DNA from: a virus
Direction: 5' to 3' (one strand)
Virus record (IMG/VR): IMGVR_UViG_3300043446_001205
Location: 1 to 29,604 of that record
DNA length: 29,604 bases
Shown piece after piece: positions 178 through 27,563 of the stretch. The notes below the pieces were generated by a model. That model saw only the letters and a program-made list of their open reading frames with translations, was not told the origin of the DNA and did not search any database. Made by a program: the position numbers and the translations under genes. Position 1 is the first letter of the stretch, and each line of letters begins with the position of its first letter.

Positions 178-366
178 TTATTCTACTTCCTGATATTTAT
201 GATCATCACAAACAGGAAATAGTTTTTCAGCAATAGCTTTTATACCCACTGATTTTGCGTCGCAGAAGAAGCATATGGACATAAATTTTTCATTACGTAA
301 TCTCATTTCGTCCAATGCTTGAATTAGACGCACATCCTTATACCACTTAGTTTGTTGACTAGCCAT
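178..366 (-). CDS. Small CxxC...CxxH zinc-binding protein, leaderless
   Basis: 62 residues with C32-x2-C35 and C53-x2-H56, a likely single zinc site like that of the protein at 12105-12314. The start ATG at 364-366 has no ribosome-binding site. A perfect TATAAT (minus strand, 373-378) with extended-10 TG lies six bases upstream, so the mRNA should begin at the start codon. Two DnaA-type boxes (385-393, 397-405) occupy the spacer and -35 position of this promoter, which suggests DnaA could occlude it. Function unknown. Confidence 0.8.
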   Translation of the reverse strand: MASQQTKWYKDVRLIQALDEMRLRNEKFMSICFFCDAKSVGIKAIAEKLFPVCDDHKYQEVE

Positions 367-427
367 ATATAAATTATAACATAGTTATCCACAGGTTTAT
401 CCACATATTGAGACAAATATATACAAG

Positions 428-637
428 TTATCCACAGGATTGAATACCTTTGATGACACAGGCTTCAACCCCATCTCCATATCTATGTTCAAACTCTCTA
501 CCTACACTCCATAGTTCATCATCTTGGACAATTAAATATTTGTTAATAGAGTCAGGATTAGTATCTCCTGCTATTCGTCCAATATGATAGGTTTTGATCA
601 GTTTGTCATTGATATAGATTGGAATGTGTATAGGCAT
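428..637 (-). CDS. Hypothetical 69-residue protein, leaderless
   Basis: Starts M-P-I-H-I-P-I-Y-I-N-D-K and is mostly beta-strand-like by composition; no family recognised. The promoter at 644-672 (TTGACA, 17 bp, TATACT) ends six bases before the ATG, predicting a leaderless mRNA. The last codons and the stop overlap a DnaA-type box (428-436), and two more boxes (679-698) sit just upstream of the -35, so the gene lies inside the DnaA-box cluster. Confidence 0.75.
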   Translation of the reverse strand: MPIHIPIYINDKLIKTYHIGRIAGDTNPDSINKYLIVQDDELWSVGREFEHRYGDGVEACVIKGIQSCG

Positions 638-643
638 GGTTTA

Positions 644-672
644 AGTATATATTGGGATAGGGGGTTTGTCAA
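644..672 (-). promoter_or_regulatory. Promoter of the leaderless 69-residue gene
   Basis: TTGACA, 17 bp, TATACT, then six bases to the ATG at 637. Two DnaA-type boxes (679-698) lie directly upstream of the -35. Confidence 0.75.
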
Positions 673-771
673 GCATAGTTATCCACAAGTTATCCACAGA
701 TAAATCTTACTGATAATATTTTTATTTTCTATGGATGGAGGAAAATGGAGGAAAGTGGGGAATGGAGCACC

Positions 772-888
772 CTAGATATGGCGTTCGTAATGCCGCCAAA
801 CCACAATATATAGATATTCCCAATTTTCTGGATTATACCCCATATCAAATTGTTTGTCAAGTATCCATATATCCCACATATTGGGCAT
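772..888 (-). CDS. Candidate 38-residue Trp/Tyr-rich microprotein
   Basis: An ORF from ATG at 886-888 to TAG at 772-774, rich in Trp, Tyr and His (for example N-M-W-D-I-W and V-V-W-R-H-Y-E-R-H). The composition looks protein-like, unlike the AT-rich junk around it. There is no good ribosome-binding site (only a TGGA) and no clear -10 for a leaderless start. A perfect consensus promoter (832-860) lies within the ORF, so the stretch may instead be promoter DNA. Treat as a candidate only. Confidence 0.35.
   Translation of the reverse strand: MPNMWDIWILDKQFDMGYNPENWEYLYIVVWRHYERHI
832..860 (-). promoter_or_regulatory. Perfect consensus promoter inside the candidate 38-residue ORF
   Basis: TTGACA, 17 bp, TATAAT. 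The RNA from about 825 leftward has no ORF with a usable start; it contains two CCTCC blocks (minus strand, about 735-757) preceded by T-rich tracts. Confidence 0.55.
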
Positions 889-1100
889 AATTTGTCCAAA
901 TATTGATATAATATTTTGCCCAAAAATGTGGAAAAATTATAACATTTCGTAATAAAATATTTGAATTTGCCAGAAAAAATATATAAAATGTTTGAAAACT
1001 TTCAGGGATTTTTTAATGTCTTTCGTAATGTATATTATGGGAATTTGTTCAGGGATTTTTTGATCCCCGTTCGTAATGTCTATTTAACTTATTTAAAATC

Positions 1101-1135
1101 CCCCGCCGCTTCCGGGCGGCAGAAAAATGGCGGGG
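1101..1135. repeat. GC-rich hairpin with two alternative stems
   Basis: CCCCGCC (1101-1107) pairs with GGCGGGG (1129-1135); alternatively GCCGC (1105-1109) pairs with GCGGC (1116-1120). The two stems exclude each other. On the minus strand the outer stem is followed by GATTTT, so it may end leftward transcripts. It is an isolated GC-rich island in AT-rich DNA. Confidence 0.5.
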
Positions 1136-1149
1136 TATATAAAAGATAC

Positions 1150-1178
1150 TTGACAATACTCCCTATATACAGTATAAC
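1150..1178 (+). promoter_or_regulatory. Consensus promoter without an obvious gene
   Basis: TTGACA, 17 bp, TATAAC on the plus strand. No open frame of note follows before the convergent gene end at 1338. Confidence 0.5.
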
Positions 1179-1192
1179 AAGGATATCCTGAT

Positions 1193-1221
1193 TTGACAAA
1201 TAGAAAAATATTTGATAAAAA
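1193..1221 (+). promoter_or_regulatory. Second plus-strand promoter without an obvious gene
   Basis: TTGACA, 17 bp with TGA before the -10, then TAAAAA. Transcripts would run about 110 bases into the hairpin at 1294-1331. Confidence 0.45.
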
Positions 1222-1293
1222 GTTTTGGGGATTTTGGGGATATTTCGTAATATATCGTAATAAGGTTTTGATGGTTTGAAATAGTGCATCGGC

Positions 1294-4111: not shown

Positions 4112-4127
4112 TGTGAGGTAAATCACA
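4112..4127. promoter_or_regulatory. CRP/GlxR-like palindrome 1 (perfect)
   Basis: TGTGA-GGTAAA-TCACA. The 15-mer TGTGAGGTAAATCAC recurs exactly at 7850 and 12877. Overlaps the stop of the 53-residue gene and lies upstream of promoter 4067-4095. Confidence 0.75.
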
Positions 4128-4284
4128 CATGCCCCTCAGCTAACAATCCTATTAATAGATCTTCAATTTGCATTAATACTGCTTTGTCTTCTTCAACAAA
4201 TTTAGTATCTGTCAAATGATGATGCATAGTATAGTTTAGAATCGTGGCCATATTTTCTACTTGTTCTCTTGTATACCCTAACAT
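4123..4284 (-). CDS. Hypothetical 53-residue protein
   Basis: ATG at 4282-4284 shares one base with the stop of the upstream gene (TAATG), a translational-coupling arrangement. The sequence M-L-G-Y-T-R-E-Q-V-E-N-M is helical, with three His in a row near residue 20. The TGA stop (4123-4125) is formed by the half-site of the CRP-like palindrome at 4112-4127. No family recognised. Confidence 0.75.
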   Translation of the reverse strand: MLGYTREQVENMATILNYTMHHHLTDTKFVEEDKAVLMQIEDLLIGLLAEGHV

Positions 4285-4508
4285 TATGCATTTTCCCTTT
4301 CCATTAGAATATTATAGGCGGCAAGGCTGGTTACGTCAACTTCCAGTTCCATGCCAGGGTACTGATTAATAAGATAATCTAAAGCTTCCCCTGCTGATTT
4401 AAATTCACTATAGTTCTTACTAGATCCATATCCTTGTATATTTATTTCCCAGCAATCTTTACCGCCAGGAGATACGGAATATTCCATTTCATATATTTCT
4501 GCCTTCAT
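4284..4508 (-). CDS. Hypothetical 74-residue protein
   Basis: Starts M-K-A-E-I-Y-E-M-E-Y with AGAAAGGG 8 nt upstream and its own promoter (4533-4561). Mixed alpha/beta composition, no Cys motif beyond a single Cys. Coupled to the 53-residue gene downstream by a one-base overlap. No family recognised. Confidence 0.8.
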   Translation of the reverse strand: MKAEIYEMEYSVSPGGKDCWEINIQGYGSSKNYSEFKSAGEALDYLINQYPGMELEVDVTSLAAYNILMERENA

Positions 4509-4532
4509 TATTACCCTTTCTGTGGTATATAA

Positions 4533-4561
4533 ATTTTAGCAAATTTTGGGGAAAAATGCAA
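4533..4561 (-). promoter_or_regulatory. Promoter of the 74/53-residue gene pair
   Basis: TTGCAT, 17 bp, extended TGC-TAAAAT; TTACGGAGGAC directly upstream of the -35 (minus strand). Confidence 0.65.
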
Positions 4562-4644
4562 GTCCTCCGTAATAAAGAAAAATGAAAAATACTATAGTTT
4601 AAAATATCGGGGGATTTTTTGCAGCTTTTAGATCAAAAGAAAAG

Positions 4645-4667
4645 TGAGCAGTTTATACTCTTGCTCA
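4645..4667. repeat. Conserved TGAGCA/TGCTCA hairpin, copy 1
   Basis: TGAGCA (4645-4650) and TGCTCA (4662-4667) around an 11-base loop starting GTTT. Lies about 35 bp after the DUF932 stop (minus strand). Confidence 0.6.
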
Positions 4668-4675
4668 GGAGTTGC

Positions 4676-4713
4676 GTATTAGTTACGCTATTGCGTATTC
4701 GTTACGCTATTGC
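4676..4713. repeat. 19-bp tandem duplication at the DUF932 stop
   Basis: GTATTAGTTACGCTATTGC (4676-4694) and GTATTCGTTACGCTATTGC (4695-4713) differ at one base. The right copy includes the DUF932 stop codon, so a second in-frame copy of the gene end lies just after it. Each unit can form a TACGC/GCGTA stem across the junction. Confidence 0.7.
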
Positions 4714-5718
4714 TAAAGTATTTTTTACAACACTTAGCAAACGATTTTTTTCTGCTGTAATTGTCGCATCAAAACCAGAAGCAGCAGCAAGAATACTTTC
4801 GTTATTCCCACCACGAGAAGCACGATGCCAATCTAAACGCTCAGTTAGAGCATTGAAAGCACCCCAAGCGGTATTAGCAATCATGCCGTTATATTCGCCT
4901 GTATAAATATCGTTGATAACATCAACTTTATTTTCCCACTTCTTGATTGCGCCCTTAGTATCTTTATCAGGCTTAGGATAAGCAGCGAGAATAATCTCGT
5001 TGAATTGTTGAGCAGTAATTTCTTTTTCAATCATAGCCTTAGCCATGATGTCAAAAGCGTCCATGTATTTATTCGCAAGACCTAGTGTCTCACGAGCAAT
5101 AGCAATTTTACCTTCTGCTGTCTGAGTGTGACGAATTTTGAAAGATTGCTTGATAGCATTCTTTCCACGCTTAGCACCTAGAGCAAGGTTTAGAGTATTA
5201 GCACACACAACACGAACGGGTGTGATAGATGCTTGAATAGCGATTGAGCCATCGTGAGATGTGTTGATAAGCAAATAAGTCTTTACCTTATCCGCAACAC
5301 CTGTAGGGTCTAATACTGTCTCACGCTCAAGAGCAAGAGAGCCAAATACTACACGCCCACCACGAATAGAGCCAGCAGTTTCCCAACGGCCTCCGCCATC
5401 AAGAATATTATCACCAAAAGAAAATAGTTCTTCATTTTGGAGAACATGATAACGCTGTCCAACAATTCCCAAAACATCTGTCTGAGATTTATTTGTAGGA
5501 TTTGTCCTAACAACATATTGGTATTCTTTATCTGATGATAAAGTATTTGGAATTTCAACATCAACTAATCTAACATTCCAATTGTTTAGATTAGCAGCAG
5601 CAAGCATTTCTGCTGTATTTTTTTCTTCTGTGAATACTGTGCCTAGACCATGCCAAGCAGGTTCACGGAAAGATGCGAACGAAGCAACGCCATTTTGCGT
5701 TTCTAATTCATGAGCCAT
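4702..5718 (-). CDS. DUF932 phage/plasmid-like protein
   Basis: 338 residues. The N-terminus (M-A-H-E-L-E-T-Q-N-G, then P-A-W-H-G-L-G) and the R-V-V-C-A-N-T-L segment near the middle are hallmarks of DUF932 (TIGR03299) proteins found on phages and plasmids; the length fits. The biochemical role is not established. The start has AGAAAGGA 8 nt upstream. It is a single-gene unit with a good promoter (5750-5778) and an upstream CRP-like box (5818-5833). The stop lies inside a 19-bp tandem duplication (4676-4713), followed by a TGAGCA/TGCTCA hairpin. Confidence 0.9.
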   Translation of the reverse strand: MAHELETQNGVASFASFREPAWHGLGTVFTEEKNTAEMLAAANLNNWNVRLVDVEIPNTLSSDKEYQYVVRTNPTNKSQTDVLGIVGQRYHVLQNEELFSFGDNILDGGGRWETAGSIRGGRVVFGSLALERETVLDPTGVADKVKTYLLINTSHDGSIAIQASITPVRVVCANTLNLALGAKRGKNAIKQSFKIRHTQTAEGKIAIARETLGLANKYMDAFDIMAKAMIEKEITAQQFNEIILAAYPKPDKDTKGAIKKWENKVDVINDIYTGEYNGMIANTAWGAFNALTERLDWHRASRGGNNESILAAASGFDATITAEKNRLLSVVKNTLAIA

Positions 5719-5749
5719 TTATTTTTCCTTTCTATAGCCATTTATACCA

Positions 5750-5778
5750 ATCTTAGCAGATGGGGCTGACAAAGTCAA
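5750..5778 (-). promoter_or_regulatory. Promoter of the DUF932 gene
   Basis: TTGACT, 17 bp, extended TGC-TAAGAT. Confidence 0.7.
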
Positions 5779-5800
5779 ATAGCCTTAGCAAACATAGGGC

Positions 5801-5810
5801 AAAACGGACA
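5801..5810 (+). promoter_or_regulatory. AAAACGGACA motif, copy 1
   Basis: One of five intergenic copies (also 8932-8941, 9969-9978 reversed, 12601-12610, and a copy near 16159-16170 reversed). Here it lies between the -35 and the CRP-like box. Confidence 0.45.
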
Positions 5811-5817
5811 TTTTTTC

Positions 5818-5833
5818 TGTGATCTTAAACACA
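5818..5833. promoter_or_regulatory. CRP/GlxR-like box 2 (one mismatch)
   Basis: TGTGA-TCTTAA-ACACA. Centre about 82 bp upstream of the predicted DUF932 transcript start. Confidence 0.45.
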
Positions 5834-5881
5834 CCTTCTTAAACTTGACAAGCGCAGCTTTTGCGGGTCGGGAATTTTGTG

Positions 5882-5902
5882 GAGCAGTTTTAGGACGTGC
5901 TC
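5882..5902. repeat. GAGCA/TGCTC hairpin, copy 2
   Basis: GAGCA (5882-5886) and TGCTC (5898-5902), loop starting GTTTT, followed by AGG as in the other copies. About 20 bp after the stop of the 152-residue gene. Confidence 0.55.
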
Positions 5903-5922
5903 AGGTCCTTTTGGATAGCCCC

Positions 5923-6381
5923 CTATCGCAAACTTCTTACATCATCCACTTCTACATTATCAATATCAATATCATGTGACCATGAATTTATTTCAACATT
6001 TAGGTCAACGCTATTGATATCAAAGTCAGCAAGTTCTGAAAGTGGAATTGAAATTGTTCCTGAAAATGTGGCGGTCCCTTCAAATTCAATTTCCTTGGTT
6101 GGATTGAATCCAAAGATATCACATAGTTCAGAGACAATATCTTCTGAATCCATTTCTAAATAATCAGCCAGTCTATTTTCTACCTGAGTAACTTTAGAAG
6201 AGTACTCGTCCAGCCTTTTAGATTTGCGACGGCCTTGTTCAAGTTCCCATTCAAGGTCTACAACTTTGATAGTTGGGTACTGAACCGTTTGGTCCGTTGC
6301 ATCCAAATCAATAACCTTATAGGTTACTAATTGATTAGGATTATAGTGGACTGGGGCCTCTATAGTGTTAGTCGTTTCCAT
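5923..6381 (-). CDS. Hypothetical 152-residue protein
   Basis: ATG at 6379-6381 has GGAAAGG 9 nt upstream and overlaps the preceding gene by 14 bp. The C-terminal third is rich in Asp, Ile and Val in an alternating beta-strand pattern (S-V-D-L-N-V-E-I-N, I-D-I-D-N-V-E-V). The middle is helical and acidic. No family recognised. Followed within 10 bp by a conserved TGAGCA/TGCTCA-type hairpin. Confidence 0.8.
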   Translation of the reverse strand: METTNTIEAPVHYNPNQLVTYKVIDLDATDQTVQYPTIKVVDLEWELEQGRRKSKRLDEYSSKVTQVENRLADYLEMDSEDIVSELCDIFGFNPTKEIEFEGTATFSGTISIPLSELADFDINSVDLNVEINSWSHDIDIDNVEVDDVRSLR

Positions 6382-6643
6382 TTGTGATATCCTTTCCTAA
6401 TTCATCAAATTCTTTGATAGTATCTACCATATCATTTATTTCTTGTTCTGTCAATAATACATGAGTAACAAGAGTAGTAGTCATAGATGAAAGAGCGGCT
6501 GAGTATTGAAACATAGCCGTAGCAAATTCGTCACTTGACATGCTATCTTTATTTTGATAAATGGCACGAGCCATATCCATTATGATTTCATCATAGACCG
6601 CTTCTTGTGTTGCGTTTTGTAGTTCTAGCATTGTTGCTATCAT
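6368..6643 (-). CDS. Hypothetical helical protein, 91 residues
   Basis: Starts M-I-A-T-M-L-E-L with AAAGGA 6-7 nt upstream. Predicted wholly helical, acidic, with a Met/Thr-rich middle (S-S-M-T-T-T-L-V-T). First gene of a two-gene unit whose promoter (6674-6702) has a perfect CRP-like palindrome upstream (6723-6738). Function unknown. Confidence 0.8.
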   Translation of the reverse strand: MIATMLELQNATQEAVYDEIIMDMARAIYQNKDSMSSDEFATAMFQYSAALSSMTTTLVTHVLLTEQEINDMVDTIKEFDELGKDITNGND

Positions 6644-6673
6644 GGGGGTTTCCTTTCTTTTGGTTATTTACTA

Positions 6674-6702
6674 AGTCTAGCAGAAATCAGGGAAAAATAC
6701 AA
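6674..6702 (-). promoter_or_regulatory. Promoter of the 91/152-residue gene pair
   Basis: TTGTAT, 17 bp, extended TGC-TAGACT; TTTACGGCGGG directly upstream. Confidence 0.65.
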
Positions 6703-6722
6703 ATCCCGCCGTAAACCAGCTC

Positions 6723-6738
6723 TGTGATCCTAGTCACA
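6723..6738. promoter_or_regulatory. CRP/GlxR-like palindrome 3 (perfect)
   Basis: TGTGA-TCCTAG-TCACA, centre about 63 bp upstream of the predicted start of the 91/152-residue transcript. Confidence 0.75.
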
Positions 6739-6763
6739 TTTTCTCGGGGGCAAAAATTGGAGG

Positions 6764-6786
6764 TGAGCAGTTTTTTATCATGCTCA
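6764..6786. repeat. TGAGCA/TGCTCA hairpin, copy 3
   Basis: TGAGCA (6764-6769), loop starting GTTTTTT, TGCTCA (6781-6786). About 25 bp after the stop of the 55-residue gene. Confidence 0.6.
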
Positions 6787-6810
6787 GGATATTGCGTTGA
6801 CGCCGCAATT

Positions 6811-6978
6811 TTAGTATGTTTTTACCATAGCAAAACGCTGTTGTCCATTTGCTAAGCGTAGCATTACACGAGTTACATTTTTACTTTGTGGAACAAACTT
6901 TTCAATTCGTCCTGTAACACCTGTTTTAGAAGTAGTGAATAAATCTCCTACTTGATAAGTGTATCCGCCTAATGTCAT
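6811..6978 (-). CDS. Small KOW/SH3-like protein, 55 residues
   Basis: Opens M-T-L-G-G-Y-T-Y-Q-V-G-D-L-F-T and continues V-T-G-R-I-E-K-F-V-P. This matches the protein at 7589-7753 (Y-K-V-G-D-T-Y-T-S, V-T-G-V-I-K-E-I-V-P) over nearly its whole length, so the two are paralogues. A V-G-D start, five short beta strands and basic residues suggest a KOW/SH3-like barrel, possibly nucleic-acid binding; this is inference. AGAAAGGA lies 8 nt upstream. It shares a transcript with 7043-7465, because no promoter lies between them. Confidence 0.8.
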   Translation of the reverse strand: MTLGGYTYQVGDLFTTSKTGVTGRIEKFVPQSKNVTRVMLRLANGQQRFAMVKTY

Positions 6979-7008
6979 TTGTTTTTCCTTTCTGTTGGGG
7001 TGTTGTGT

Positions 7009-7031
7009 TGAGCAGTTTTATTTCATGCTCA
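7009..7031. repeat. TGAGCA/TGCTCA hairpin, copy 4
   Basis: TGAGCA (7009-7014), loop GTTTTATTTCA, TGCTCA (7026-7031). Between the 140- and 55-residue genes with no promoter after it, so it cannot be a complete terminator if the second gene is expressed. Confidence 0.6.
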
Positions 7032-7042
7032 GGAAAATAGTT

Positions 7043-7465
7043 TTACAAGTATCTTGCGATAGCGTTGTAAGTAGAAGTAGAAACTACTTCCTCATCTGTC
7101 ATCTTGAGAATACGAATAGCGTTCTCAATTTCATCTTTCTGCTCACGATACTGCCACTCATGAATAGACACATAGTCTTTCTTTGGTTCATCAGGTAGTT
7201 CAATAGCATTTTTAGGTAGCGAGAAAGATACTTGGATTTCGCCATTGTATCTTGTATGAGCAGACAAGTCCTCTGCCTTGTTGATAGCACCCATAGCAAT
7301 TTTAGCAACTTCTTTATTCCATGCCTTTACTGCCTTGTCGTGCTTAGCCTCATTTGCCTCTTGTGAAGCAAAGTCTTTATTTAGTTTATCAAGTGCGCTT
7401 TCTAGTGCCTTGATTACTTTAGTTGTAGCGATTTTTACATTTATCGCTTTGCCATTTCTAGCCAT
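7043..7465 (-). CDS. Lys/Ala-rich helical protein, 140 residues
   Basis: The N-terminal 70 residues are Lys- and Ala-rich helix (A-L-D-K-L-N-K-D-F-A-S, K-A-V-K-A-W-N-K-E-V-A); then a short beta segment (G-E-I-Q-V-S-F-S-L-P) and a final helix. AGAAAGG lies about 10 nt before ATG. Own promoter at 7507-7535. Followed by a TGAGCA/TGCTCA hairpin and then the 55-residue gene. No family recognised. Confidence 0.8.
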   Translation of the reverse strand: MARNGKAINVKIATTKVIKALESALDKLNKDFASQEANEAKHDKAVKAWNKEVAKIAMGAINKAEDLSAHTRYNGEIQVSFSLPKNAIELPDEPKKDYVSIHEWQYREQKDEIENAIRILKMTDEEVVSTSTYNAIARYL

Positions 7466-7506
7466 TTTTGTATTGCCTTTCTGTTTGGTGTTTTGTGGGG
7501 GTATCT

Positions 7507-7535
7507 ATCCTAGCATTTCTAGGTAGAAAAATCAA
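7507..7535 (-). promoter_or_regulatory. Promoter of the 140/55-residue gene pair
   Basis: TTGATT, 17 bp, extended TGC-TAGGAT. The hairpin 7537-7562 abuts the -35. Confidence 0.65.
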
Positions 7536-7536
7536 G

Positions 7537-7562
7537 TGAGCAGTTTAGCCTTGACTTGCTCA
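7537..7562. repeat. TGAGCA/TGCTCA hairpin, copy 5
   Basis: TGAGCA (7537-7542) and TGCTCA (7557-7562), loop starting GTTT, followed by GG. About 27 bp after the stop of the 54-residue gene. Confidence 0.6.
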
Positions 7563-7588
7563 GGTCAGGTTAGCGTTTGCTAAAGTGA

Positions 7589-7753
7589 TTACTTGTTTTT
7601 CCAAGTTGTCCAGCGAGTTGCGCCATTGACATCAAGTTTCACACGAACAGTATTCTTATCTGTTGGCACGATTTCCTTGATAACGCCTGTCACCTTTGAC
7701 TTCTGTGAAGTGTAGGTGTCGCCCACCTTGTAGGTTGCTACTGATACTGACAT
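7589..7753 (-). CDS. Small KOW/SH3-like protein, 54 residues
   Basis: Paralogue of the 6811-6978 product (shared V-G-D, T-S-x-K, V-T-G-x-I, V-P-x-x-K-N, R-V-x-L). The C-terminus is aromatic and basic (T-R-W-T-T-W-K-N-K). Probably a small beta-barrel that binds nucleic acid or a protein partner, by composition only. The promoter (7787-7815) has a near-perfect CRP-like box upstream. A hairpin (7537-7562) follows the stop. Confidence 0.8.
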   Translation of the reverse strand: MSVSVATYKVGDTYTSQKSKVTGVIKEIVPTDKNTVRVKLDVNGATRWTTWKNK

Positions 7754-7786
7754 TATTTTCTCCTTTGTTAGTTGGTTATGGTATTT

Positions 7787-7815
7787 ATTATTTCATTTAT
7801 TTTTGGCTTTGTCAA
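7787..7815 (-). promoter_or_regulatory. Promoter of the 54-residue KOW-like gene
   Basis: TTGACA, 17 bp, extended TGA-AATAAT. Confidence 0.6.
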
Positions 7816-7829
7816 GTTATTTTCCCTAA

Positions 7830-7850
7830 AAATCTCACATTTTGAGATTT
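7830..7850 (-). terminator. Terminator-like hairpin
   Basis: AAATCTCA (7830-7837), loop CATTT, TGAGATTT (7843-7850). Read on the minus strand the stem is followed by a T-run, so it could end the 20-residue peptide transcript. AT-rich and therefore weak. Confidence 0.5.
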
Positions 7851-7865
7851 GTGAGGTAAATCACT
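7850..7865. promoter_or_regulatory. CRP/GlxR-like box 4 (one mismatch)
   Basis: TGTGA-GGTAAA-TCACT; shares a 15-mer with boxes 1 and 11. Provides the TGA stop of the 20-residue peptide. Centre about 78 bp upstream of the predicted start of the 54-residue gene's mRNA. Confidence 0.6.
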
Positions 7866-7923
7866 CATGACCCATGCCCATGAACATTATGAACATGATA
7901 ACTAATAAGATTATTATTTCCAT
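7861..7923 (-). CDS. 20-residue hydrophobic micropeptide
   Basis: ATG at 7921-7923 preceded by AGAAAGGGCAAT, the standard ribosome-binding site of this region, and by a full promoter (7946-7974: TTGCCA, 17 bp, TAAAAT). The peptide is a run of Ile, Leu, Val, Met and Phe ending G-H-E, so it could form one membrane helix. The TGA stop is made by the CRP-like palindrome at 7850-7865. Too short for most gene callers, but the expression signals are complete. Confidence 0.6.
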   Translation of the reverse strand: MEIIILLVIMFIMFMGMGHE

Positions 7924-7945
7924 ATTGCCCTTTCTGTTGCCTTTC

Positions 7946-7974
7946 ATTTTATCATTTTTAGGGGTATTTGGCAA
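7946..7974 (-). promoter_or_regulatory. Promoter of the 20-residue micropeptide
   Basis: TTGCCA, 17 bp, extended TGA-TAAAAT. Confidence 0.6.
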
Positions 7975-7987
7975 GTCCCCTAGATCT

Positions 7988-8707
7988 CTACTTCTTTTTA
8001 GCAGAGAAAACTATATTAGCCTTATTATCTATACACAATCCACAAGATACACAAGCAGAGCCATTTGTAGAGATAAGTGGAATAGCCTTTTTATTTTCAG
8101 GACACTTTGCACCTACCTTGCCAATCATGGCTTTTAGGTCTGCCTGCCCAATTGCGAAGGTATCTGCAAGGTACGCTAACTTAATTCCTGTATCCTTATT
8201 AAGATTAATAGCAATCTCTTTATTGTCTTTATCTGTAGAATAATATAAAGATAAATTATCTATACCGTTTAGAATTTCAGCAGCGGCAGCTACACGTGTA
8301 TATACCCAAAATTTTATATCAAAATTATTTCTAATAACATTGCGCCATGCATGTGTATAAGTATCATTAAAGAAATCGCCATCCCAGTGGATACGGAATA
8401 GCATTGCAGCGTCACGCTTTTCACAATCTGTTCTAAAATCATTAATCATATCCTGCAGCAGATTTTCCATAGTCTCCTGGTCTGCGTCTTTTAATAATTC
8501 CCAGTTATGAAGCAGGACAGCCTTTACTCCTTTGTATACTCTCTCAAGTTTTCCTGCGTAGCAAACACTCTCACAAGTGTTAGTGGCACCAGGGCACGAG
8601 TAAGCCTTGCCAGCAGGTAATCCAAAAGTGTTGGCAATTGTTGGGGTTTTTCCATTTGGGGAGACAGCATTAGTCACCTTTCTATCCATAGAGCGTTTTA
8701 GTTTCAT
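7988..8707 (-). CDS. GP88-family cysteine-rich phage protein
   Basis: 239 residues. The N-terminal motif N-T-F-G-L-P-A-G followed by S-C-P-G-A-T-x-x-C-x-x-x-C-Y-A (C38, C44, C48) and the C-terminal A-C-V-S-C-G-L-C (C219, C222, C225) match the gene-product-88 family common in actinobacteriophages. Two three-Cys clusters suggest a metal or Fe-S site; the reaction is unknown. GAGAGGA lies 8 nt upstream. It has a promoter at 8735-8763 and is preceded closely by a 47-residue basic gene; the AT-rich terminator at 7830-7850 lies downstream. Confidence 0.85.
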   Translation of the reverse strand: MKLKRSMDRKVTNAVSPNGKTPTIANTFGLPAGKAYSCPGATNTCESVCYAGKLERVYKGVKAVLLHNWELLKDADQETMENLLQDMINDFRTDCEKRDAAMLFRIHWDGDFFNDTYTHAWRNVIRNNFDIKFWVYTRVAAAAEILNGIDNLSLYYSTDKDNKEIAINLNKDTGIKLAYLADTFAIGQADLKAMIGKVGAKCPENKKAIPLISTNGSACVSCGLCIDNKANIVFSAKKK

Positions 8708-8720
8708 TGGGGGTCCTCTC

Positions 8721-8864
8721 TTATTCCTTAGACAAGTCTAACATTTTTCTAGTATTTTGTCTAGTCCTTTTGTATTTCTTTTTATTTTGAATTGGGGAAG
8801 CAGCATTAGATCGCCGTAATTCCATTAGGCGTCGTAACTCTTCTTTAGTCTTCCTTAGTTTCAT
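8721..8864 (-). CDS. 47-residue Lys/Arg-rich protein, leaderless
   Basis: ATG at 8862-8864 has no ribosome-binding site but lies exactly six bases after a TAATAT -10 with a TTGTAT -35 at 17 bp (8871-8899), so the mRNA should be leaderless. About a third of residues are Lys or Arg (M-K-L-R-K-T-K-E-E-L-R-R-L), compatible with nucleic-acid binding. It ends 13 bp before the GP88 gene, so both may be cotranscribed. No family recognised. Confidence 0.65.
   Translation of the reverse strand: MKLRKTKEELRRLMELRRSNAASPIQNKKKYKRTRQNTRKMLDLSKE
8735..8763 (-). promoter_or_regulatory. Promoter of the GP88-family gene
   Basis: TAGACA, 17 bp, extended TGT-TAGACT, inside the end of the 47-residue gene. Confidence 0.55.
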
Positions 8865-8870
8865 ATAATA

Positions 8871-8899
8871 ATATTAGCAGAAATAAAATAAAAATACAA
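8871..8899 (-). promoter_or_regulatory. Promoter of the leaderless 47-residue gene
   Basis: TTGTAT, 17 bp, extended TGC-TAATAT, then six bases to ATG. Confidence 0.65.
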
Positions 8900-8944
8900 A
8901 TTTGGGGAGGTTCTACATAATTCGTAACAAAACGGACATTTCAG

Positions 8945-8957
8945 GCGCCTCGGGCGC
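8945..8957 (-). terminator. Short GC hairpin after the 74-residue gene
   Basis: GCGCC (8945-8949), loop TCG, GGCGC (8953-8957), starting two bases after the stop. No T-run on the minus strand. The CCCGAG in it recurs near other unit ends (10776-10781, 12656-12662 reversed forms). Confidence 0.4.
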
Positions 8958-8959
8958 TT

Positions 8960-9184
8960 TTAGCTCATGATAAAGAATTTGAAAATTGTATCATCAGAAA
9001 ATTCTTGAATTTCTTTTTCACCAAATTCATTTTCATAGGTGATAACAATTCCATCTTTAGTTGGAGACAATTCAAGAACTTGAACAACCTCATCATTTAT
9101 TTCAATGAGATCATCTTCCATTAGTTGGTCTGCTGATAGATTATCTACATACAAATAGTCCATGCCAATTATTGTATCAGTCAT
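8960..9184 (-). CDS. Hypothetical acidic protein, 74 residues
   Basis: ATG overlaps the upstream stop as ATGA. Very acidic, beta-rich (D-L-I-E-I-N-D-E-V-V-Q-V-L-E-L), resembling small phage proteins with an SH3-like D-x-I-x-I-N-D-E-V pattern; no named family. Last gene of a four-gene unit; a short GCGCC/GGCGC hairpin (8945-8957) follows the stop directly. Confidence 0.8.
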   Translation of the reverse strand: MTDTIIGMDYLYVDNLSADQLMEDDLIEINDEVVQVLELSPTKDGIVITYENEFGEKEIQEFSDDTIFKFFIMS

Positions 9185-9390
9185 TTTACAGACACCTCTC
9201 CATTACGATAAAAAGTTTTTGTATACATTTTACCTGTTGGGTCAGATAAATTATAAGTTGCGTATTCTTTAGCATCACCAAAGTCAGCGCATTTATTCCA
9301 AGCATCTACCGCAGTCATCATGTCTGATACTCGCAGGGTATTTACTAATTCTCCGTCATACGAAGTAGTTATAGCATAAGTGTATTCCAT
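9181..9390 (-). CDS. Hypothetical 69-residue protein
   Basis: The start at 9390 (M-E-Y-T-Y-A-I-T-T-S) is preferred to an upstream frame at 9423: it follows the previous stop as TAAAATG and has GAGAGGA 9 nt upstream. The product is beta-rich with Y-D-G-E-L and R-N-G-E-V turns. Overlaps the next gene by 4 bp. No family recognised. Confidence 0.8.
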   Translation of the reverse strand: MEYTYAITTSYDGELVNTLRVSDMMTAVDAWNKCADFGDAKEYATYNLSDPTGKMYTKTFYRNGEVSVK

Positions 9391-9391
9391 T

Positions 9392-9673
9392 TTAGTATTC
9401 CTCTCTTTCAATAATCCACGCATCTAGGTGGTGTTGTTCAATAATAGCCCACGCAGGAGCAGTAGTCAAACCCTTATAGGTAATTCCTTCAGGCATAGGA
9501 ATATCTAAATCCCAAAGTCCAGCATCATTGACCGCATCTATGGCTTCAACGCAAGGCGCAACCATAGAACGGGGAACGGGTGGGTAGTGATTAGCAGATA
9601 GGTGTATCGCTATCTGACTTTCAATATCTAAATTATCCGCAAGGGCTAAATCATTAGCAAAGATACTTCCCAT
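9392..9673 (-). CDS. Hypothetical 93-residue protein
   Basis: Starts M-G-S-I-F-A-N-D-L two bases after the previous stop, with no clear ribosome-binding site, so it is probably translationally coupled. The segment A-N-H-Y-P-P-V-P and the final A-W-I-I-E-R-E-E-Y are distinctive; the pattern of a Pro-Pro-Val-Pro turn after a helix is seen in unnamed phage proteins. Function unknown. Confidence 0.8.
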   Translation of the reverse strand: MGSIFANDLALADNLDIESQIAIHLSANHYPPVPRSMVAPCVEAIDAVNDAGLWDLDIPMPEGITYKGLTTAPAWAIIEQHHLDAWIIEREEY

Positions 9674-9675
9674 TA

Positions 9676-9891
9676 TTATAGTGCCTCCATACTTGCGAAT
9701 AGTTCAGGCTCAGATAGCAATCCATTATCATAGATTACATCTCCGTCCTCATCAAGAATTAGTCCATAAGGATTACAATCGCAAGACTCAAAATCAAAGT
9801 CCTCTCCTTGTGTCCATACATGATTACCTTTACCGCCACACATTTCGCATGAAGCAATCTGACGGAGTGCGTATTCTAGTTTTTCTGTCAT
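9676..9891 (-). CDS. Small zinc protein, CxxC-x18-CxC
   Basis: 71 residues. C15-E-M-C18-G-G-K-G followed by C37-D-C39: a DnaJ-like C-x-x-C-x-G-x-G knuckle paired with C-x-C. The 38-residue protein at 13328-13444 has the same C-x2-C-x18-C-x-C spacing. AGAAAGGA lies about 8 nt upstream; first gene of a four-gene unit with promoter 9918-9946. Zinc binding is inferred; partner unknown. Confidence 0.8.
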   Translation of the reverse strand: MTEKLEYALRQIASCEMCGGKGNHVWTQGEDFDFESCDCNPYGLILDEDGDVIYDNGLLSEPELFASMEAL

Positions 9892-9917
9892 TTTATTTCC
9901 TTTCTTTCAATATTGAA

Positions 9918-9946
9918 ATCCTATCAGATAGGGGTGACAAAATCAA
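9918..9946 (-). promoter_or_regulatory. Promoter of the four-gene unit 9891-8960
   Basis: TTGATT, 17 bp, extended TGA-TAGGAT. GGCGTGTC and an AAAACGGACA-type motif lie just upstream; no CRP-like box. Confidence 0.65.
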
Positions 9947-9981
9947 ATCTGACACGCCCTGTCCAATATGTCCGTTTTGTC

Positions 9982-10479
9982 CTACCATGAGGACTGATAG
10001 TAGAATGATAGACTTTCAAAGTCAGGTCTATCAATAATAGGCTGTAATTGTTTTATGGTATCCATTAGGTCATGCCAATACCATTCATCAATATCAGTAC
10101 CGCCAAAGAAAAATCCTTCTCTAGGTGGCAAGATATTAGGGTCTTTATTGGTAATCGCTAGAGTACAGTCATTTACCAATTGTTTTAGGTGCTTATGCGC
10201 TACATAGTACTCACCGCAGTCATCTTCACCACGCTGTACAGTATTCACAAACCAATTGTGTATCTGATTACACTTGCGCCAATAGGCTACATTTACAGAT
10301 ACATCTACACCATAGATACTTTCTTTATCTACAAGAGTATCAACACCAGCAGCATTTACTACATCAGTCCATTGTGTAGCGGTAGCCTCAGAATATTTAG
10401 TATCGCTATCACGATCAAGTTTATCCCATTCAATTTTATTTATGTGCTTACGAGCACTAAGATACATATCTAATCCCAT
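9982..10479 (-). CDS. Conserved phage protein with M-G-L-D-M-Y-L start
   Basis: 165 residues. The opening M-G-L-D-M-Y-L and the internal V-A-Y-W-R-K-C-N-Q-I-H-N-W-F-V are typical of a phage/plasmid family of unknown role that I recognise by pattern only. Later E-D-D-C-G-E-Y and D-E-W-Y-W-H-D segments add conserved-looking aromatic and acidic residues. It follows the 48-residue gene as TAAAATG with AGAAAGGA just inside that gene. Confidence 0.85.
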   Translation of the reverse strand: MGLDMYLSARKHINKIEWDKLDRDSDTKYSEATATQWTDVVNAAGVDTLVDKESIYGVDVSVNVAYWRKCNQIHNWFVNTVQRGEDDCGEYYVAHKHLKQLVNDCTLAITNKDPNILPPREGFFFGGTDIDEWYWHDLMDTIKQLQPIIDRPDFESLSFYYQSSW

Positions 10480-10480
10480 T

Positions 10481-10627
10481 TTAGTTTAGTGTCCTTTCTA
10501 GGTCTTTCAATTGTTTATCTGTAAGTATTACACTTAGCATACCAAAAGCATAAGCATAGTGGTAGCCTTCAATAGATTTAGTTTTAGAATAATCTAAAAT
10601 TTTATTCAAGATTTCTTGTCTATCCAT
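10481..10627 (-). CDS. Hypothetical 48-residue protein
   Basis: ATG at 10625-10627 preceded by GAAAGGACAG, with its own promoter (10658-10686) and a perfect CRP-like palindrome (10706-10721) upstream. Sequence M-D-R-Q-E-I-L-N-K-I-L, then G-Y-H-Y-A-Y-A-F-G-M-L. Helical. Its 3' end contains the ribosome-binding site of the next gene. No family recognised. Confidence 0.75.
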   Translation of the reverse strand: MDRQEILNKILDYSKTKSIEGYHYAYAFGMLSVILTDKQLKDLERTLN

Positions 10628-10657
10628 TTTTATCTGTCCTTTCATTTTCAGGCTTCT

Positions 10658-10686
10658 AGCCTATCATTTTCTACTGACAAATTCAA
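10658..10686 (-). promoter_or_regulatory. Promoter of the 48/165-residue gene pair
   Basis: TTGAAT, 17 bp, extended TGA-TAGGCT, with GGCGTGTC upstream. Confidence 0.6.
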
Positions 10687-10705
10687 ATCAGACACGCCAG
10701 CTTTT

Positions 10706-10721
10706 TGTGAGAAAAATCACA
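10706..10721. promoter_or_regulatory. CRP/GlxR-like palindrome 5 (perfect)
   Basis: TGTGA-GAAAAA-TCACA, centre about 62 bp upstream of the predicted start of the 48/165-residue transcript. Confidence 0.75.
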
Positions 10722-10750
10722 AAGCCCGTAAAGTGTGACGTAATTAACAC

Positions 10751-10772
10751 TGTGGATAAACCTGTGGAAAAC
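10751..10772 (-). promoter_or_regulatory. DnaA-type double box
   Basis: A perfect TGTGGATAA (10751-10759) and a one-mismatch TGTGGAAAA (10763-10771). The 22 bases match the double box at 384-405 (other strand) with one difference. Confidence 0.6.
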
Positions 10773-10800
10773 CCCTCGGGCCCCATTAGTTGAAATTTCA

Positions 10801-10821
10801 AGCAGTTTTGAATCATGCTCA
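10801..10821. repeat. Degenerate AGCA/TGCT hairpin, copy 6
   Basis: AGCAGTTTT and TGCTCAGG are conserved, but the G of GAGCA is A, leaving a 4-bp stem. Follows the five-gene unit. Confidence 0.45.
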
Positions 10822-10832
10822 GGATCTGAAAA

Positions 10833-10931
10833 CTAAAATCCGTTTTCTTTTATGTCTTGAATTGCTAATCGCACAAGCTGAATTGTTACAACTAACAAAA
10901 TAATTTGAACAATTGTAGTTAGAATTCTCAT
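10833..10931 (-). CDS. 32-residue single-pass membrane micropeptide
   Basis: ATG overlaps the upstream stop as ATGA. After M-R-I-L the sequence is a hydrophobic run (T-I-V-Q-I-I-L-L-V-V-T-I) followed by a charged tail (D-I-K-E-N-G-F), typical of a small transmembrane peptide. Last of five coupled genes; a degenerate copy of the TGAGCA/TGCTCA hairpin (10801-10821) follows the stop by about 12 bp. Confidence 0.65.
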   Translation of the reverse strand: MRILTTIVQIILLVVTIQLVRLAIQDIKENGF

Positions 10932-11119
10932 ACTGGAATTAGTCCTAACTCATCAACACCGCAAGCCTTTTCAAATTTTGCTTTATCAAATCTTTCATTG
11001 TCTGCTTGAAAATATTGAGCAAATTCTTCAACCAAATCTTCAAAAACTGCTGGGTGAATTTCATCAGAAAAACCTTTTAGAATATTTGAAGTTTTTACAT
11101 AGTCTTTTCGTGTCATCAT
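10928..11119 (-). CDS. Hypothetical 63-residue protein
   Basis: M-M-T-R-K-D-Y-V-K-T; helical and acidic in the second half (F-E-D-L-V-E-E-F-A-Q-Y-F). Its ATG overlaps the previous stop as TAATG; the second ATG is an equally possible start. Coupled to the membrane peptide gene downstream. No family recognised. Confidence 0.8.
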   Translation of the reverse strand: MMTRKDYVKTSNILKGFSDEIHPAVFEDLVEEFAQYFQADNERFDKAKFEKACGVDELGLIPV

Positions 11120-11367
11120 TAGGCATTATCTCCTAACAAAATCCATGAATGAGTTGCGCCGTCATTGACACGCTCTAATTCTTCAAGAATTTCTTCTTGT
11201 GTCATTAGTGAAGGTCTGCCTAACAATTCAGTAACGGCAGAAATATTTAGAGCAATAAATTCCTGAGCAGGCAGGTTTCTAATAACACCTAGGAATGGTG
11301 AATGGTCAGCGATACGAGAGACGAAATTTATTCCGTCAGCGGTGAATGGGTAATCTGTGTATGTCAT
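11119..11367 (-). CDS. Hypothetical 82-residue protein
   Basis: The start at 11367 (M-T-Y-T-D-Y-P-F-T-A-D-G) follows the upstream stop as TAAAATG and has AAAAGGA about 8 nt upstream; the frame extends to 11400 but that part lies inside the previous gene. A helical C-terminus (Q-E-E-I-L-E-E-L-E-R-V). No family recognised. Confidence 0.8.
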   Translation of the reverse strand: MTYTDYPFTADGINFVSRIADHSPFLGVIRNLPAQEFIALNISAVTELLGRPSLMTQEEILEELERVNDGATHSWILLGDNA

Positions 11368-11368
11368 T

Positions 11369-11482
11369 TTAGTTCTTTTCCTTTTCTGTTGTTTTGACAA
11401 TTGTAGCGATTTTCTCTAAATTAGTCAAGCGAGTATTTTCTCGCTGACTTTCAACAAGTTTCTTGAATTCGTCAAGTTTCAT
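11369..11482 (-). CDS. 37-residue charged helical peptide
   Basis: ATG shares a base with the upstream stop (TAATG). M-K-L-D-E-F-K-K-L-V then basic helix ending K-E-K-E-K-N. Its coding sequence contains a TTGACT, 17 bp, TACAAT promoter (11400-11428) that could give a second transcript for the three downstream genes. Function unknown. Confidence 0.65.
   Translation of the reverse strand: MKLDEFKKLVESQRENTRLTNLEKIATIVKTTEKEKN
11400..11428 (-). promoter_or_regulatory. Internal promoter in the five-gene unit
   Basis: TTGACT, 17 bp, TACAAT inside the 37-residue gene. Confidence 0.45.
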
Positions 11483-11682
11483 TAGTCATTAGTCCTAACT
11501 GCTAGAGTGCGGTAAGCATAACCGCCATTTTGATTTCTAACTTCAACAAGATACGCCTCAGCGTTTTCATACCATACGCAGGCAGGGTGTTTTTCTGCTG
11601 AGATGATTTCTCCTGTTAGAGTTTTAGAGCGATACATTTTTCCTACAAGTAGGCTTTCAATTGTGTAGATATTTGCTGACAT
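11482..11682 (-). CDS. Beta-rich protein, 66 residues
   Basis: M-S-A-N-I-Y-T-I-E-S-L-L-V-G-K-M-Y with further L-T-G-E-I-I and Y-L-V-E-V strands, suggesting a small SH3-like barrel distantly like the 6811 and 7589 products; this is weak. AGAAAGG lies 10-11 nt upstream. First gene of a five-gene unit controlled by promoter 11715-11743 and the perfect palindrome at 11765-11780. Confidence 0.8.
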   Translation of the reverse strand: MSANIYTIESLLVGKMYRSKTLTGEIISAEKHPACVWYENAEAYLVEVRNQNGGYAYRTLAVRTND

Positions 11683-11714
11683 TAGTTGTCACCTTTCTTT
11701 AGTGTTGATAATTT

Positions 11715-11743
11715 ATTATTTCATTTTTTTGGCTAAAAGTCAA
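11715..11743 (-). promoter_or_regulatory. Promoter of the five-gene unit 11682-10833
   Basis: TTGACT, 17 bp, extended TGA-AATAAT. Confidence 0.6.
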
Positions 11744-11764
11744 ATCTTAGCCCAGCGTGTTTGG

Positions 11765-11780
11765 TGTGAGATACCTCACA
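11765..11780. promoter_or_regulatory. CRP/GlxR-like palindrome 6 (perfect)
   Basis: TGTGA-GATACC-TCACA, centre about 64 bp upstream of the predicted start of the five-gene unit; forms the stop of the 59-residue gene. Confidence 0.75.
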
Positions 11781-11955
11781 TTTTACGGCTAGCAAGAATT
11801 GCTTCCTGCTCACTAGGAGATAGGGCTTCCCACATTCTGAGATAGTCCAAAGCATTTAATTTATTAAGAGATTTTGAGCCATAGCCAATAGCCTCAAAGC
11901 CAAAATCTTTAGCAATATCATTACGAATTTCATTATAGTATTCATTAGTGTTCAT
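11776..11955 (-). CDS. Hypothetical 59-residue protein
   Basis: ATG at 11953-11955 with AGAAAGG about 9 nt upstream and promoter 11989-12017. Starts M-N-T-N-E-Y-Y-N-E-I-R and ends S-P-S-E-Q-E-A-I-L-A-S-R-K-M. Its TGA stop (11776-11778) is formed by the half-site of the CRP-like palindrome at 11765-11780. Helical; no family recognised. Confidence 0.75.
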   Translation of the reverse strand: MNTNEYYNEIRNDIAKDFGFEAIGYGSKSLNKLNALDYLRMWEALSPSEQEAILASRKM

Positions 11956-11988
11956 TTTTAGAACCTTTCTTTAGTTTCTTACTCCGTA

Positions 11989-12017
11989 AGTCTAACACAT
12001 AAATCTCAAAAAGTCAA
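11989..12017 (-). promoter_or_regulatory. Promoter of the 59-residue gene
   Basis: TTGACT, 17 bp, extended TGT-TAGACT, with TTACGGCGTGTC upstream. Confidence 0.65.
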
Positions 12018-12038
12018 GACGACACGCCGTAACTTAAA

Positions 12039-12054
12039 TGTGATTTGCACCACA
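12039..12054. promoter_or_regulatory. CRP/GlxR-like box 7 (one mismatch)
   Basis: TGTGA-TTTGCA-CCACA, centre about 64 bp upstream of the predicted start of the 59-residue gene's mRNA. Confidence 0.5.
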
Positions 12055-12065
12055 GCGCCCCGAGC

Positions 12066-12101
12066 ATTTTTGCAATGTTGTCAAGATCAACACGCAAAAA
12101 T
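12066..12101 (-). terminator. Long stem-loop after the first leftward unit
   Basis: ATTTTTGC (12066-12073) pairs with GCAAAAAT (12094-12101), and TGTTG (12076-12080) with CAACA (12088-12092); seven-base loop. It starts four bases after the stop of 12105-12314. No T-run after it, like the hairpin at 1294-1331. Confidence 0.5.
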
Positions 12102-12104
12102 TAT

Positions 12105-12314
12105 TTAGTCAAAGTAAATTGCACCTTTGACATCTTTGTGATTAACACAAACGTTACCACGTGGAATTTCTACATGACATTTGAAGCAGAGCATTTTCAT
12201 TTCTGCTTTTGTTAGTATTGCTAATTCTAAATCTAATTTAGTATCAGCACTAGCATTTTCTAATGATACCCAACCAGCACCATTTTTATTCATTTCAAAA
12301 ACTTCAATAGACAT
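12105..12314 (-). CDS. Small CxxC...CxxH zinc-binding protein, 69 residues
   Basis: C43-F-K-C46 and C56-V-N-H59 at the C-terminus form a likely zinc site of the same type as the 178-366 product. The N-terminal 40 residues are amphipathic (D-L-E-L-A-I-L-T-K-A-E). AGAAAGGA 7 nt upstream. Second gene of the first leftward unit; a long stem-loop (12066-12101) follows the stop. Confidence 0.8.
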   Translation of the reverse strand: MSIEVFEMNKNGAGWVSLENASADTKLDLELAILTKAEMKMLCFKCHVEIPRGNVCVNHKDVKGAIYFD

Positions 12315-12329
12315 TTAGTTTTCCTTTCT

Positions 12330-12530
12330 TTAGTATCCAATAATTTCTGTGCCATAGTATTCTACGGCATCAACTACGTTCATTACACCTTTATAGTCTT
12401 TACACTTGCGGCAGATACTATCCCACCTATCAAATCTATTTGAGCAGAATACGCAAATGTTATCCTGAATTGCTATGTTATTTTCTAGTAGAAAATCTAC
12501 TACATCTATTATTTTGTTAGTGTTAGTCAT
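12330..12530 (-). CDS. Small four-cysteine zinc-ribbon protein, 66 residues
   Basis: C26-V-F-C29 and C40-R-K-C43 form a compact zinc knuckle in the middle; both ends are hydrophobic helix or strand (D-V-V-D-F-L-L). AGAAAGG lies about 11 nt before ATG. It is the first leftward gene of the divergent control region, promoter 12566-12594. Confidence 0.8.
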   Translation of the reverse strand: MTNTNKIIDVVDFLLENNIAIQDNICVFCSNRFDRWDSICRKCKDYKGVMNVVDAVEYYGTEIIGY

Positions 12531-12565
12531 TTTAGAACCAACCTTTCTTTTTATCTAATACAAGT

Positions 12566-12594
12566 ATTCTAGCAGGGGGGTCTGACATTTTCAG
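12566..12594 (-). promoter_or_regulatory. Leftward promoter of the divergent region
   Basis: Extended TGC-TAGAAT -10 with a poor -35 (CTGAAA) at 17 bp, as expected for an activator-dependent promoter. An AAAACGGACA motif (12601-12610) and two CRP-like boxes follow. Confidence 0.5.
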
Positions 12595-12620
12595 GGGTAT
12601 AAAACGGACATTTAGGACTT

Positions 12621-12636
12621 TGTGACGTAGATAACA
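12621..12636. promoter_or_regulatory. CRP/GlxR-like box 8 (one mismatch)
   Basis: TGTGA-CGTAGA-TAACA, directly abutting box 9; centre about 70 bp upstream of the leftward start. Confidence 0.45.
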
Positions 12637-12652
12637 TGTGAGCTACATCACA
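12637..12652. promoter_or_regulatory. CRP/GlxR-like palindrome 9 (perfect)
   Basis: TGTGA-GCTACA-TCACA in the middle of the divergent region. Confidence 0.75.
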
Positions 12653-12665
12653 GGCCCCGAGGACC

Positions 12666-12674
12666 TGTGGATAA
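12666..12674 (-). promoter_or_regulatory. DnaA-type box in the divergent region
   Basis: TGTGGATAA, a perfect TTATCCACA on the minus strand, between boxes 9 and 10. Confidence 0.55.
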
Positions 12675-12678
12675 CTTT

Positions 12679-12694
12679 TGTGGTATAAATCACA
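12679..12694. promoter_or_regulatory. CRP/GlxR-like box 10 (one mismatch)
   Basis: TGTGG-TATAAA-TCACA, centre about 64 bp upstream of the predicted rightward start. Confidence 0.5.
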
Positions 12695-12715
12695 TGCGAC
12701 ACGCCGTATTAGAAC

Positions 12716-12744
12716 TTGACTTTGTCAGTCTAGTATGTTATTAT
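12716..12744 (+). promoter_or_regulatory. Rightward promoter of the divergent region
   Basis: TTGACT, 17 bp, extended TGT-TATTAT, driving the 35-residue zinc-knuckle gene. Confidence 0.7.
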
Positions 12745-12778
12745 TCTCCTATAAGAAATCAACAGAAAGGATTTCAAA

Positions 12779-12886
12779 ATGATAAAGAAAGATTGTATGC
12801 TATGTGGTCAGACCACTCATGTATCTAAGCGCAGTATCCCTGCCATGTGTAACTCTTGTATAGAGGGTCTAAATCGTGTGAGGTAA
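12779..12886 (+). CDS. 35-residue four-cysteine zinc-knuckle protein
   Basis: ATG at 12779 with AGAAAGGA about 8 nt upstream and a strong promoter at 12716-12744. C6-M-L-C9 and C24-N-S-C27 make a minimal treble-Cys-pair zinc module with basic residues between (V-S-K-R-S-I). The TAA stop lies in the spacer of the palindrome at 12877-12892. First rightward gene, so it faces the other zinc-ribbon gene (12330-12530) across the divergent region. Confidence 0.75.
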   Translation: MIKKDCMLCGQTTHVSKRSIPAMCNSCIEGLNRVR

Positions 12887-12892
12887 ATCACA
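12877..12892. promoter_or_regulatory. CRP/GlxR-like palindrome 11 (perfect)
   Basis: TGTGA-GGTAAA-TCACA, identical to palindrome 1. Contains the TAA of the 35-residue gene; about 70 bp upstream of a possible start for the next gene. Confidence 0.7.
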
Positions 12893-13779: not shown

Positions 13780-13892
13780 CACTATTATTTTGATCTTTTT
13801 TATTTTTATATGTGTATCATACATCTTCAAAAAATATTCAGATTTTCTCAAAATGAAAAATTTTTCAGATTTTGTGGGGTATAATAGAAAAC

Positions 13893-16760: not shown

Positions 16761-16769
16761 GTGATCCAT

Positions 16770-27543: not shown

Positions 27544-27563
27544 GAATAAAGTAGGAGACTATA

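Follow-up and report, generated by a model that had tools for sequence, protein, structure and literature searches.

Conserved tandem DnaA boxes bordering a non-coding junction element and a variable gene slot in large actinophages

The bacterial origin unwinding system (BUS) consists of tandem DnaA boxes together with DnaA-trios (PMC8287927). DnaA boxes also lie upstream of or inside DnaA-regulated bacterial promoters (e.g. dnaA, PMC8203912), and at the lambda ori phage DnaA boxes are found near promoters, with DnaA possibly acting via transcription (DnaA-stimulated transcription, PMC8203912). In the Stanwilliamsviridae, DnaA boxes are present at the edge of the terminal repeat (e.g. Samisti12, NC_042012), beside a TCGTAA-repeat region that is non-coding and close to the DUF932 gene. 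Little literature was found on phage DnaA boxes, and none, in the literature searched, on the start of replication in large actinophages that have their own helicase and polymerase and no DnaA. The junction described here shares with the BUS the tandem same-orientation boxes 2-3 bp apart, the short spacer and an AT-rich, T-phased stretch lying on the side expected; it differs in being located in a phage and known from sequence alone, in retaining the trio-like stretch in boxless relatives, and in trios that are not the preferred 3'-GAT-5'. In contrast to the lambda ori, no lambda O/P-like initiator was noticed, and its boxes are perfect, tandem and bordering swapped small genes; unlike the DnaA-regulated bacterial promoters, its promoters are leaderless phage promoters with tandem boxes and variable genes. 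The Stanwilliamsviridae edge has a different box arrangement, and TTACTGAT and the 10-bp repeats of the junction were not seen there.

The window (the whole stretch of DNA analysed, a 29.6-kb virus record with actinophage-type genes) is, judging by its gene content and relatives, a fragment of a phage of about 95-120 kb related to the Streptomyces Stanwilliamsviridae. By DUF932, the closest isolates are Streptomyces phages belonging to this family (about 52% identical); the Boydwoodruffvirinae, compared with the window group by identity and gene neighbourhood, have a DUF932 identity of about 52% and a similar neighbourhood. We take the hosts to be low-GC freshwater Actinobacteria. The IMG/VR relatives comprised 421 stretches with a DUF932 relative, 80 of them kept, and 34 relatives of the ORF at 428-637, in records up to 120 kb long. 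A phage-plasmid or prophage nature was rejected (ParA-type ATPase or tyrosine integrase in 0/19 relatives). The window also encodes a collagen-like protein (16761-17492) and, at 13872-14222, a translation that resembles, by eye alone, an IscA/HesB-type iron-sulphur protein. In L152 / G005 30000-42000, genes between the junction and the DUF932 end had a third-position GC of 0.34-0.35 and those past the junction 0.24-0.25; G013 and G006 showed a similar rise. The coordinates of the features are collected in Table 1.

Table 1 Positions of the DnaA boxes, junction features, promoters and genes in the window.
Feature	Position	Strand	Remarks
Leaderless 62-aa ORF	178-366	-	
Second tandem DnaA box, spacing 12	385-405	+	directly upstream of leaderless ORF 178-366; away from the conserved junction
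Single DnaA box	428-436	+	overlaps 3' end of ORF 428-637
Leaderless 69-aa ORF	428-637	-	one of many families in the slot
Promoter of leaderless ORF 428-637, TTGACA-17-TATACT	644-672	-	11/12 match; ATG 6 nt past -10; just past the tandem boxes
Tandem DnaA boxes, conserved junction	679-698	+	TTATCCACA-AG-TTATCCACA; position, orientation and spacing (11/12 bp) shared by relatives
AT-rich stretch with TTACTGAT at 707-714	699-725	+	T at every third base, resembles DnaA-trios
Three GTGGA-type repeats (ATGGAG, ATGGAG, GTGGGG)	735-760	+	exact 10-bp spacing
Non-coding TTCGTAAT / CGTAAT array	784-1259	+	single orientation; first copy 786-791
Perfect sigma-70-type promoter facing the boxes, TTGACA-17-TATAAT	832-860	-	12/12 match
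DUF932 gene	4702-5718		
GP88 gene	7988-8707		
Second-site double box, second box TTTTCCACA	10751-10772	-	opposite orientation; beside CRP-like palindrome
Single DnaA box	12666-12674	-	divergent intergenic region, between CRP-like palindromes
Two adjacent proteins with major tropism determinant N-terminal domain (Mtd_N tail proteins)	25963-29486		

Five perfect TTATCCACA boxes lie within 314 bp, all on the + strand (385-393, 397-405, 428-436, 679-687 and 690-698), as an earlier note on this DNA had claimed; the whole window contains seven, compared with 0.43 ± 0.64 in dinucleotide shuffles (shuffle maximum 2), which rules out a chance origin. The same note had described a double box repeated at 10751 with one difference, and the sequences agree with this, the + strand of 10751-10772 reading TGTGGATAAACCTGTGGAAAAC and the reverse complement of 384-405 reading TGTGGATAAACCTGTGGATAAC, one change apart. 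Boxes similar to this second site are found in many relatives, roughly 5 kb upstream of DUF932. That the boxes are real and conserved is clear from the relatives: the DUF932 loci of the relatives contain 285 boxes vs 14 occurrences of the reversed-motif control (about a twentyfold excess), and the box count exceeded that control in nearly all of the 22 large relatives. The conserved site in the alignment of relatives is the pair at 679-698, not the boxes at 385-436. A tandem perfect pair was present in 43 of the 65 syntenic loci (32/51 once duplicates were removed), and at least one perfect box in 49. The view that phages seldom carry such boxes proved wrong, tandem boxes not being rare in phages: a scan of viral contigs gave at least 120 stretches with them, 114 of the 120 listed lacking the core motif of this family. 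Two viral contigs without the core motif, L029 and L034, have 10-11 perfect DnaA boxes over 4-11 kb.

The element beside the boxes (window positions 699 to 1260, approximately) is fixed across the relatives and includes TTACTGAT, three GTGGA-type repeats, CGTAAT repeats and box-facing promoters; the order outward from the boxes is an 8-bp gap, TTACTGAT, the AT-rich stretch, the GTGGA-type repeats and the CGTAAT array. The 51 non-redundant relatives analysed here were selected by TTACTGA adjoining tandem boxes, so that the conservation of TTACTGAT within this set is partly by construction; the independent check is provided by the boxless loci located through DUF932 synteny. The distance between the boxes and TTACTGAT was 8 bp in 107/109 cases (a set likewise chosen partly by the TTACTGAT motif). 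The AT-rich region, CGTAAT hexamers and direct repeats noticed earlier next to the boxes are indeed there: the 25 bp beyond the second box are 83% AT in the 51 relatives; positions 784-1251 contain five copies of TTCGTAAT (the expectation for the whole window being 0.68), with degenerate direct repeats between the copies; CGTAAT appears 85-91 bp past box 2 in 49/51 relatives, vs 4.6% at random places, and is strongly biased in strand (220 forward vs 2 reverse in 51 relatives x 1.1 kb). At least three GTGGA-type repeats, whose core resembles an inverted half of the DnaA box, were found in 43/51 relatives, with a spacing of 10 in 85/104 intervals. A structured leader RNA was rejected: the prediction gave ten pairs linking the iterons to the boxes, but no compensatory change in any of them, and Rfam gave no match.

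The boxes are on the variable side of TTACTGAT, bordering a slot occupied by many gene families: the first downstream ORF belonged to 51 families in 102 sites (mechanical ORFs of at least 45 aa, some of them possibly spurious), and a family search with ORF 178-366 gave no match. In the freshwater relatives conservation does not extend past TTACTGAT, and what lies beyond it varies. About a third of the relatives have no perfect tandem pair at the junction, and most of these keep the element: TCAGTAA is mostly at its unchanged place, the iterons and CGTAAT are retained, and the boxes are imperfect in some loci and missing in many. The junction element is independent of the boxes, and its retention without them means that the T at every third base is not usable as evidence of DnaA action.

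Leaderless promoters (defined as TATAAT-like, N6, ATG and an ORF of at least 40 aa) are associated with the boxes above chance: within 40 bp after a box, 37 were in the TGTGGATAA orientation vs one in the opposite, and 29 of 605 were preceded by a box (2.5 expected), these counts, like the palindrome counts below, being of distinct sequences and not of independent events. The gap between the -10 and the ATG was 6 in 52/64, and the 385-405 box, read on the minus strand, ends a few bp ahead of a TATAAT. Promoters facing the boxes from within the CGTAAT array were found in 41/48 relatives, mostly 120-240 bp from the boxes. A CRP-like palindrome (TGTGAN6TCACA) was located within 100 bp of 59/168 boxes away from the junction vs 0/132 junction boxes. 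This palindrome occurs at 12 sites (at most one mismatch) in window positions 4112-12892, with 1.55 expected, and 176 times exactly in 710 kb of relatives, mostly upstream of the DUF932 region, vs 0-8 for control palindromes.

We tentatively propose, at somewhat less than an even chance, that the boxes would bind host DnaA, their best-supported role being the control of the junction genes. The earlier note had offered an origin or DnaA control of the two leaderless genes, and it is the second half of that proposal that the orientation bias favours. Since the phages encode no DnaA, the host protein is the likely binder; we infer its binding, and any activating or repressing effect. Host DnaA would bind the high-affinity-type boxes at 385-698, either ahead of the promoters of the leaderless slot genes (ORFs 428-637 and 178-366) or in their spacers, and probably also at other early promoters carrying CRP-like palindromes; phage genes would thereby be tuned to host DnaA, from boxes that border both a conserved element and a slot with an exchangeable content of small genes. 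Against regulation, a leaderless promoter within 40 bp is lacking for most boxes, and promoter control does not require the fixed 8-bp distance to TTACTGAT.

The main rival to control of the junction genes, following closely, is a DnaA-dependent origin, with a terminus element as a further possibility. Host DnaA on the tandem boxes would open the AT-rich trio-like stretch, on which the phage DnaB-like helicase, primase and DnaE would be loaded; transcription from the box-facing promoters, which themselves favour an origin, may aid the opening, by analogy with lambda ori. We regard this as possible and rather doubtful. The AT content after the tandem boxes speaks for it, as do the replication genes: a DnaB-like helicase and a DnaE-type polymerase each matched in 18/19 large relatives, whereas a DnaA C-terminal domain (DnaA_C) was found in 0/22, so that no phage-encoded DnaA was identified among them. 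Under the BUS criterion a box has at most two mismatches to TTATCCACA and is often in tandem within 3 bp, and the boxes at 679-687 and 690-698 are 2 bp apart. The in-phase run of T after box 2 (2.23 vs 0.80 ± 0.24 in shuffles) fits the arrangement of DnaA box, spacer and trios in BUS origins (PMC8287927), with several in-phase T-centred trios near the box by a permissive rule (at least three NAN within 16 bp); however, several relatives retain this AT-rich, iteron-containing stretch without having boxes. An origin would require boxes in all relatives, and the perfect tandem pair is missing from 22 of the 65 syntenic loci, while G010 (111 kb, a metagenomic record that may be incomplete) has one perfect box in total. 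The skew analysis that had been suggested as a check for an origin was run on seven large genomes: base skew, third codon positions included, tracks the coding strand and shows no origin-type switch where the boxes lie, and skew was discarded as an origin locator, being dominated by gene direction. Retention of the element without boxes and the single box of G010 weigh against the origin half of the earlier proposal, and base skew places no origin. A copied bacterial oriC was rejected, and an origin is also disfavoured, by the absence of the full core from bacterial genomes except for one MAG contig in the genome collection. This sole match (L371) is a Chitinophagaceae contig, possibly a misbinned phage contig.

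The Streptomyces phages provide the comparison with genome termini. In ten Boydwoodruffvirinae phages a box (the 9-mer; in Bmoc its first eight bases) is located 69-71 bp (90 in Bmoc) outside the edge of a terminal repeat of 10.7-12.2 kb, which starts, just inside the edge, with TCGTAA repeats. TCGTAA clusters, related to CGTAAT, were observed near DnaA boxes in the Streptomyces phages of both subfamilies. This fixed distance, together with the halt of conservation at TTACTGAT in the freshwater relatives, would suit a junction that is a terminal-repeat edge, with the GTGGA repeats and boxes as a terminase recognition site and the likeness to DnaA boxes secondary. We consider such a role quite improbable: it leaves the association between boxes and promoters unexplained, and the distance fails in three Loccivirinae phages (Gilson, Annadreamy, Comrade), whose boxes, 5.8-6.6 kb from a short terminal repeat, indicate that boxes are not tied to termini across the family. 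The Loccivirinae boxes are tandem and sit in large non-coding gaps, a point in favour of an origin. In the freshwater relatives no terminal repeat was seen in the assemblies: each record contains a single DUF932 gene, which the circular break interrupts in G018. One phage has a contig break close to the junction, rejected as a terminus because its 127-bp overlap is an assembly-break mark.

These isolates also bear on control of the junction genes by host DnaA, and count against it: in the ten Boydwoodruffvirinae phages the boxes lie between convergent genes, no gene starting behind the edge box, and in Samisti12 none of the annotated genes starts downstream of the boxes at promoter distance on either side. 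Moreover, the Streptomyces phages retain TTATCCACA although the high-affinity box of their host is TTGTCCACA (PMC4285127). This retention, and the lack of DnaA in the phages, would be expected if a phage-encoded DNA-binding protein recognised TTATCCACA instead of host DnaA. We hold that to be the least probable of the explanations, since no candidate protein was found and the exact agreement with the common high-affinity DnaA box, along with the typical tandem spacing, would then have to be coincidental.

Control of the junction genes by host DnaA is the reading we retain. A broader one, which we consider unlikely, is that a widespread family of large actinophages would start replication by host DnaA at an origin on the terminal-repeat edge, so that a single element would couple the start of replication, the terminus and slot-gene transcription. 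The element and boxes are conserved enough for testing in Samisti12 and Gilson, Streptomyces phages that can be cultivated, with the boxless relatives as a natural comparison, and the junction may represent phage genes connected to host DnaA and CRP-type regulators.
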